Below are positions 13,306-15,186 of a stretch of 23,667 nucleotides of DNA, piece after piece; the stretch's first letter is position 1, and each line of letters starts with the position of its first letter. The DNA is from a virus. A model generated the notes under the pieces. It was not told the DNA's origin. It saw only the letters and a list, made by a program, of their open reading frames with translations, and did not search any database. Position numbers and translations under genes: made by a program. The stretch is from IMG/VR virus record IMGVR_UViG_3300025093_000122, positions 1 through 23,667 of that record; one strand, written 5' to 3'.

Positions 13306-14736
13306 TTAAATCCATGACTTTAATTCTTCTCCTAAAACTTCTGATGCTATATTTATTTTTTTGCGTAGAGCTTGCACGATTTTTTCATCCACTGTATCGT
13401 CCGCCATTAAATCGACATAAGTTACCGATTTTTTTTGGCCGATTCTGTGTGCTCTGTCTTCTGATTGTAATCGTTTTTCTAAGTCATAACCGTTAGAATA
13501 GTAAATTACGGTGTTTGCAGCCGTCAAAGTAATGCCATAGCCGCCCGTAGAAGGCGTTCCAACGATAAACCGGCACTTAGGGTCATCCTGAAAACGCTTA
13601 ATATTAGGCTGTCTTTCTTCTTGTGGTGTTAAACCATAGTAGTCTACAATAGATCCTTCACCATATCTTTTAACAACAGCCTCTATTATAGAAGTAATAT
13701 CATATTGATAGTGGGCCCATATAATAGCTTTACCTTCAGTTTCTTCTAGAACATTCATTAATTCAGTGATTCTATTGTTAGCAATAGGTTTAGTAGAACC
13801 ATCATCTGCAGTAAAATGACCACAAGTTATTTGTTGTAATCGCATTAATTGAGTTAATGTATTTACAGTTGTTGATTGTTTACCTTCTAGTATAGCCATT
13901 GCTTGTTTTTTCATTTGTTCATATACTTTACGTTGATCTGGAGTAAGAGGTATTTGACGTTTAATAAATATTTTATCTGGTAAATCTAGACAATCTTCTT
14001 TCAATACTCTGTATGAAAAGTTTTTTAATTTATCTGATAATTCACCTAAATTTTTAAAACCATTTACTACTTGTATTTGTCTTCCATGCATATGAAGAGT
14101 TTTCATTTCTGCATATCTATTTCTAAATGCATAATAAGAAGTAAAATCTAATAACCAAGGACTTAAAAAATCACATTGACTAAATAAATCTAAAGGGTTT
14201 TTAGTCACAGGAGAACCTGTCATTATTCTTCTATATGTAGCAAAAGCTGCTAATTTAATTATGTTTTTAGTTCTTTTAGCTGTAGGTGTCTTAATTGTAG
14301 TAGATTCATCAATAGCCATTAGCGTTCTATGAGAAGCTAAAAATTTGTTAGCAAAATCAAAACCCTTGGTTGTACTAAAAGCTTCAACATTCATAATAAG
14401 AATATGTAAATCTTCACCAGTTTTAAATAATGAATCTAAATATTCTTGTTGTTTTTTAGTTATGGCTGATTTCCACAAAACACTATTATATTCTATGTGA
14501 TCAGGTAAATGTGTAGGTATTTCATTATTATACCAAGTACCAACAACACCTTTAGGTGCTATAATTAAGGCACCATTTATTTTTCCTTTGTCATACAACA
14601 TAGCCATGTTGTCGATTAATACTTTTGTTTTGCCTGTACCCATTTCCATAAAATACGCGTACGTTTCCCTATTCCATGACTTTTCTAAAGCAGTCATTTG
14701 ATGCTCGTATGGTTTTGTTTTAAATTTATATTTCAT
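13306..14736 (-). CDS. SNF2-like superfamily 2 DNA helicase/translocase
   Basis: 476-aa ATP-dependent DNA translocase. Visible motifs in order: Q-like YEHQ (10-13), Walker A GTGKT (33-37), motif II IDEST (142-146, in place of DEAH), motif III TGSP (173-176), motif IV/V region GTPSTGGYGITLTAANTVI (393-411) and motif VI QSEDRAHRIGQ (424-434). The last is diagnostic for SNF2-family proteins. It is close to the minimal length for two RecA-like lobes, with no extra DNA-binding or nuclease domain. It is the only complete minus-strand gene, convergent with the endolysin and divergent from the replication operon. A purine-rich AGAAAGAAGA lies 7-16 bases before the ATG, downstream of a strong leftward promoter (14788-14760). 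Likely role: replication or recombination helper expressed early. Confidence 0.88.
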   Translation of the reverse strand: MKYKFKTKPYEHQMTALEKSWNRETYAYFMEMGTGKTKVLIDNMAMLYDKGKINGALIIAPKGVVGTWYNNEIPTHLPDHIEYNSVLWKSAITKKQQEYLDSLFKTGEDLHILIMNVEAFSTTKGFDFANKFLASHRTLMAIDESTTIKTPTAKRTKNIIKLAAFATYRRIMTGSPVTKNPLDLFSQCDFLSPWLLDFTSYYAFRNRYAEMKTLHMHGRQIQVVNGFKNLGELSDKLKNFSYRVLKEDCLDLPDKIFIKRQIPLTPDQRKVYEQMKKQAMAILEGKQSTTVNTLTQLMRLQQITCGHFTADDGSTKPIANNRITELMNVLEETEGKAIIWAHYQYDITSIIEAVVKRYGEGSIVDYYGLTPQEERQPNIKRFQDDPKCRFIVGTPSTGGYGITLTAANTVIYYSNGYDLEKRLQSEDRAHRIGQKKSVTYVDLMADDTVDEKIVQALRKKINIASEVLGEELKSWI

Positions 14737-14754
14737 AGTTTTTCTTCTTTCTAC

Positions 14755-14783
14755 TTGACAATATAATATTGAAGACCTATATT
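14755..14783 (+). promoter_or_regulatory. Sigma70-like promoter for the replication operon
   Basis: TTGACA at 14755-14760, exactly 17 bases, then TATATT at 14778-14783. This is a consensus -35, optimal spacing and a 5/6 -10 match. The start of transcription, usually about 7 bases after the -10, would be near 14790-14791, that is, on the ATG of the first operon gene. No extended -10 TG is present. Confidence 0.75.
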
Positions 14784-14788
14784 GTCAA
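14760..14788 (-). promoter_or_regulatory. Sigma70-like promoter for the SNF2-like helicase
   Basis: On the minus strand TTGACA covers 14788-14783, followed after 17 bases by TATATT at 14765-14760. It is the mirror image of the rightward promoter. Expected transcription start is near 14753, giving the helicase mRNA a leader of about 17 bases with the purine-rich AGAAAGAAGA. Confidence 0.75.
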
Positions 14789-14790
14789 GC

Positions 14791-15186
14791 ATGAAAGAAA
14801 AAATTACTAGATACGAGGACACTAAAAAAACGGACTCACCTATTGTACATGTTATTCAACATATTCCAGGGACTGCAGAAGGCAGGCCTAAAATAAATAT
14901 TATGGGTGCAGCTGAATATGGAAAGTTTAAATTTTTATTACCAGAACTTTCACAAATTATTTTTTCACCTGGTCCTTTAATTTATAAATTAAGAAAAGAA
15001 TTAGCTAACTATAAAAAAACAGATTATTTATTATTAACAGGTGATCCTGCAATAATAGGTGTAGCCTGTTCTATAGTTTCTGATATAACAAATGGCAAAT
15101 ACAACTTATTGAAGTGGGATAAACAAGAAAGAAAATATTATTCCATAGAGATAGACTTATACGAGAAAGGAAAAATAGATGAGTAG
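14791..15186 (+). CDS. Conserved protein, first gene of the replication operon
   Basis: 131-aa protein of unknown function starting MKEKITRYED. It has a mixed alpha/beta pattern: IVHVIQHIPGTAEGRPKINI, a hydrophobic strand/helix stretch FKFLLPELSQIIFSPGPL, then YLLLTGDPAIIGVACSIVSD, which looks like a strand-turn-helix of a small alpha/beta domain. No catalytic motif is identified. An upstream in-frame TTG at 14782 would overlap the promoter -10, so the ATG at 14791 is preferred; no ribosome binding site precedes it and the mRNA may be leaderless. First position in the operon suggests very early expression, perhaps host takeover or regulation, but that is inference. The last eight bases overlap the next gene. 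Confidence 0.65.
   Translation: MKEKITRYEDTKKTDSPIVHVIQHIPGTAEGRPKINIMGAAEYGKFKFLLPELSQIIFSPGPLIYKLRKELANYKKTDYLLLTGDPAIIGVACSIVSDITNGKYNLLKWDKQERKYYSIEIDLYEKGKIDE

Follow-up and report, generated by a model that had tools for sequence, protein, structure and literature searches.

The junction between helicase and replication genes

The window, by which we mean the whole 23,667-nt stretch of DNA analysed (positions 1 to 23,667 of IMG/VR virus record IMGVR_UViG_3300025093_000122), carries a minus-strand gene for an SNF2-type helicase next to a plus-strand replication operon, whose first gene is followed by those for a primase, a UvrD-type helicase and a DNA polymerase A. The contig resembles HTVC023P-type pelagiphages (HTVC027P, 023Pt_psg01). 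Phages of this group are very abundant ocean viruses with SAR11 bacteria as their hosts. Positions 14754–14789 read CTTGACAATATA-ATATTGAAGACC-TATATTGTCAAG, that is, exact 12-bp arms around a 12-nt loop, and contain two opposed promoters which the divergent genes adjoin immediately on both sides. The junction comprises the following features:

13306–14736, minus strand: SNF2-type helicase gene (PF00176), ATG at 14736
14737–14752, minus strand: predicted 16-nt helicase leader, AGAAAGAAGAAAAACT, beginning AGAAAG
14752–14753, minus strand: predicted reverse start, 6–7 nt past the −10
14754–14765: left arm of the inverted repeat, exact 12-bp complement of 14778–14789
14755–14760, plus strand: forward −35, TTGACA, 17-bp spacer to the forward −10
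14765–14760, minus strand: reverse −10, TATATT
14766–14777: inner spacer, non-complementary and variable among relatives
14778–14789: right arm of the inverted repeat, exact 12-bp complement of 14754–14765
14778–14783, plus strand: forward −10, TATATT
14788–14783, minus strand: reverse −35, TTGACA, 17-bp spacer to the reverse −10
14790–14791, plus strand: predicted forward start, 6–7 nt past the −10, at or beside the ATG
14791–15186, plus strand: first replication-operon gene, Pam3 gp32-like (PF23992), ATG at 14791

Each −35 has one base in common with the −10 of the opposite strand (14760 and 14783). The inner 11 positions of each arm consist entirely of hexamer bases, leaving the outermost C/G pair as the sole part outside the promoters. 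Scored against a sigma70-type consensus, from which SAR11's own promoter rules may differ, both promoters reach 11/12 and are two of the window's three top-scoring promoters. Shuffled windows contained a mean of 1.5 promoters with this score, and an overlapping opposed pair of them occurred in 0 of 300 dinucleotide shuffles. Furthermore, the element is the only exact inverted repeat in the window with arms of at least 10 and a loop of 3–20; exact repeats with arms of at least 12 were found 0.063 times per window in shuffles. A TTG at 14782, given as the forward start in the list of open reading frames, was rejected because it falls within the −10.

Conservation and rearrangement among relatives

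Scans of viral contigs yielded 303 loci with the first operon gene, and in 281 of these the helicase was nearby and divergent. Promoters were scored in the 189 divergent regions that were distinct as sequence: the forward promoter exceeded the 95% shuffle threshold in 158, the reverse promoter in 145 and both in 129 of these junctions. Searching for exact 11-bp arms returned at least 119 viral stretches, and all 117 exact-arm viral copies that were examined, among the matches listed, lie at the same helicase junction. Automatic recognition of helicase plus operon gene succeeded for 108 of them, and the remaining nine also have this junction, either cut off at one end or with a different gene on one side. 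A control pattern with scrambled arms gave no viral matches.

The span of the pair varies among relatives, mainly between 33, 34, 37 and 38 bp, and the spacers mostly stay at 16–18 bp. In two relatives (L032 and L041), the promoters remain interlocked with ~200 bp available, so the overlap cannot be put down to a shortage of space alone. In HTVC023P itself, another gene occupies the junction and the element cannot be recognised. Some relatives carry weak halves, such as TATGAA in the forward direction of 023Pt_psg01 and TATATG or TATATA in others, and activity in both directions is hence not certain in every relative. The preliminary description had assigned the SNF2 helicase and the replication operon to opposed promoters that overlap; this is borne out and extends to relatives, and the coordinates it gave for the inverted repeat and the two promoters with 17-bp spacers on about 34 bases were confirmed exactly. 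The interlocked divergent pair is real and conserved. It is a variation on a known type of promoter arrangement, and our literature searches found no description of this element.

Several lineages have rearranged the junction. In L147, L156 and L160, a plus-strand tryptophan-halogenase-like gene (PF04820; 407–1840 in L147, 969–2483 in L156) lies ahead of the replication gene. Here, the exact element is found between the helicase and this insert, whose ATG directly follows GTCAA, equivalent to the leaderless position; no separate element accompanies the replication gene. L093 carries a plus-strand 2OG-Fe(II) oxygenase-like gene (PF13759, 1879–2475) between helicase and replication operon. Its new junction of helicase and insert has a symmetric element scoring 11/12 each way. 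At the original site, beside the replication gene, the forward promoter still scores 11/12, but the reverse −35 is gone (8/12 in that direction). In L094, where the operon is faced by a different minus-strand gene, a two-way element persists with 11/12 and 10/12. L098–L101 contain two back-to-back one-way promoters, each scoring 11/12 in the direction it faces and 8/12 in the opposite one, which we infer to be a duplicated element whose complementary halves were lost. The split in L098 and the half-loss in L093 probably represent one event each. Judging from these arrangements, it is the hexamers, not the mirror, that follow the need for transcription as set by gene orientation.

A scan of genome contigs for the dyad returned 10 unrelated bacterial sites in mixed contexts, none of them pelagiphage relatives. 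Two lie 16–18 nt upstream of open reading frames resembling XRE-type regulators, in a Spirochaetota contig (L428:486–519) and an Ignavibacteriae contig (L433:2516–2549), where the dyad is perhaps an operator. In two Bacillales contigs (L430:7602–7633 and L431:1159–1190), the dyad sits within a longer palindrome, ATATACCC..GGGTATAT, which we take to resemble CsoR/CstR-type operators.

Origin of the mirror symmetry

Among the 40 distinct copies of the 34-bp class, ten of the 11 hexamer pairs are complementary throughout and the remaining one in 65%, and for the six inner pairs the proportion is only 5–47%; complementarity ends where the promoter hexamers end. The forward −10 is TATATT in 40 of 40 copies, and the reverse −10 drifts (TATATT in 26, TATCTT in 12, TATGTT in 2). 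Across relatives, TTGAC/GTCAA are the most constant letters of the element. Outside the 34-bp class, most classes, with spans of 33–38 bp, lack long perfect arms. An exception is a 33-bp class that has TATATG at either side and retains ten perfect pairs; the 37–38-bp classes have just about five terminal pairs. Most relatives thus possess the two promoters with arms that do not match perfectly. One-way TTGACA-TATAWT promoters are few in these phages, and every one that was found carries TATATT, so that two of them placed face to face yield a near-perfect mirror by default. We conclude that the mirror is largely incidental, arising because two near-identical promoters face each other. The view that such exact symmetry had been selected is not supported, given where complementarity ends, how imperfect the arms of most relatives are and how non-divergent or split copies lose the hexamers of the unused direction.

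The preliminary description had also considered a switch or strand-choice device, or a symmetric binding site for a regulator; the comparison of relatives does not support the symmetry as a mark of either. In an operator of this kind, a dimeric phage or host regulator would bind TTGAC/GTCAA half-sites and switch between the promoters. The window and many relatives are exactly symmetric, these letters are constant, and similar dyads lie upstream of regulator-like reading frames in two unrelated bacterial contigs, all of which would suit an operator. However, the −35 already accounts for TTGAC, the half-sites vary in spacing by 5 bp (span 33–38 bp), most other classes are no longer symmetric, and L093 and L098 have lost half-sites precisely in the direction that had become superfluous, which leaves an operator quite unlikely. 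On the tree, the arms co-vary, with 13 co-changing branches versus 1.2 expected. We discarded this as operator evidence since it is a geometric necessity: the difference in offset equals the difference in spacer, and as long as both promoters keep their spacers, an offset cannot change on one side without the other. Relatives keeping only one half, which the preliminary description had named as evidence against itself, do occur (L092/L093 and L098), yet exactly where the two-promoter model predicts them.

The contrast between a constant forward and a drifting reverse −10 in the 34-bp class could mean that only one promoter is important and its partner incidental. Alternatively, the arms might have been perfected by template-switch correction between the halves of a quasi-palindrome, a mutational route to perfect arms. 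We judge either version very unlikely, since the reverse promoter is above threshold in more than three quarters of the junctions scored, stays at the helicase when its forward partner changes (L156, L147, L093) and persists alone in L098. A hairpin or cruciform, acting for example in replication initiation or termination, is extremely improbable. The single-stranded region does fold at −13.7 kcal/mol (z −6.5), but this is a trivial consequence of the repeat, and the 37–38-bp classes have only their few terminal pairs. Both predicted transcripts begin outside the repeat, and the skew shows no switch beyond that of the minus-strand gene. The element has no Rfam match and is not among the terminator-like hairpins predicted in the window.

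Predicted transcription and relation to known promoters

HTVC027P encodes no RNA polymerase and depends on the host enzyme (PMC12753301), so the host housekeeping RNA polymerase is likely to read both promoters of the pair. Rightward, it would initiate on or immediately beside the start codon of the first replication gene, producing a leaderless mRNA with the 5′ end AUGAAAGAA. Leftward initiation, ~37 bp away, would give the helicase mRNA with its short leader. Polymerase bound in one orientation would cover the opposite promoter; since the footprints at such a pair would overlap entirely, the two firings are expected to be mutually exclusive. The mirror would arise from identical hexamers (TTGACA, TATATT) and 17-bp spacers set face to face. 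We hold this overall reading, in which interlocked divergent promoters are used by the host housekeeping polymerase for helicase and replication operon with exclusive firing and a leaderless forward mRNA, with considerable confidence. Observed are the sequence, its conservation and the tracking of gene orientation by the hexamers; the polymerase, the start sites, leaderless translation and mutual exclusion are inferred.

A leaderless forward start is a straightforward prediction from these sequences. Of 108 relatives that have an in-frame start 3–12 nt away from the forward −10, 103 have the ATG 6–8 nt past it; the ATG lies at most 3 nt from GTCAA in 118 of 123 relatives. In several relatives, the protein core starts within ~10 codons (e.g., MKDKAIVYVIQEI), leaving no room for a later start, which is why the mRNA is predicted to be leaderless. 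The arrangement is not universal among relatives, as the gene starts ~15 nt later in L151 and L266. There, the ATG nearest the promoter has become AGG or lies out of frame, and the later start follows a GAAA-type sequence.

A GAAAG box just outside GTCAA was found on the right in 121 and on the left in 119 of 123 relatives (~0.02 expected per 18 nt). In the window, it occurs near both predicted 5′ ends (14746–14752, minus strand; 14791–14799, plus strand). On the helicase side, GAAAG may serve as a ribosome-binding sequence; on the operon side, it usually falls within the first codons. In the HTVC027P type, GAAAG is located inside the −35s, yet still close to the predicted 5′ ends.

More tentatively, the interlock itself might be the regulator. 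Competition between polymerase orientations at the 34-bp site would then set the ratio of helicase to replication proteins without a dedicated regulator, and the junction would have moved between interlocked and shared −10 designs and split in one lineage. We regard this as possible, though rather doubtful. Tested bidirectional promoters of E. coli have a basal activity too low for competition (PMC12825309); the near-consensus promoters seen here make polymerase competition more plausible, without showing it. Domain scans of nine window genes found no regulator coupled to the element. As a conserved and easily tested pair, the element offers a handle on the start of replication in phages that use only host RNA polymerase. 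Between them, the relatives show interlocked, shared −10, split and half-lost forms, a ready-made series for studying the evolution of bidirectional promoters and for asking whether polymerase competition has a use.

Leaderless initiation has a precedent in phage lambda, where the cI transcript from PRM is leaderless. As at PRM, a phage promoter in the window would start transcription at the AUG of a gene; unlike PRM, its leaderless start is a prediction, and it feeds a replication operon instead of a repressor gene.

Overlapping divergent promoters are also found in Tn10 tet and mer, where regulators bind nearby and act on them. The account of pLS20 (PMC4207663), as far as it is considered here, likewise describes divergent genes with promoters on the same DNA, again coupled to locally bound regulators, of which none was found for the window element. 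Compared with all three systems as so described, the window element differs by its near-consensus hexamers, interlocked at one shared base on each side.

The closest comparison is with the bidirectional promoters of Warman, Grainger and colleagues (PMC12825309, PMC10268837), which, as expected for the window element, use a short piece of DNA for two polymerase orientations with mutually exclusive binding; they too often lie between divergent genes. These published bacterial promoters share −10 bases and have starts 7–25 bp apart, commonly at spacings of 10, 18 and 23. In the sister HTVC027P type, most copies of the junction between helicase and replication operon combine a forward TTTACT-18-TATAAT (or TATAGT) with a reverse TTGACT-17-TATATA so that the −10s overlap, and their predicted start spacing is 18–23 bp (21 bp in 29 of 32); as judged by these predicted starts, this type fits the published class. 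The window element, in contrast, interlocks each −35 with the opposite −10, keeps the −10s apart and, with predicted starts 37 bp from each other, falls outside that definition of 7–25 bp and overlapping −10s.
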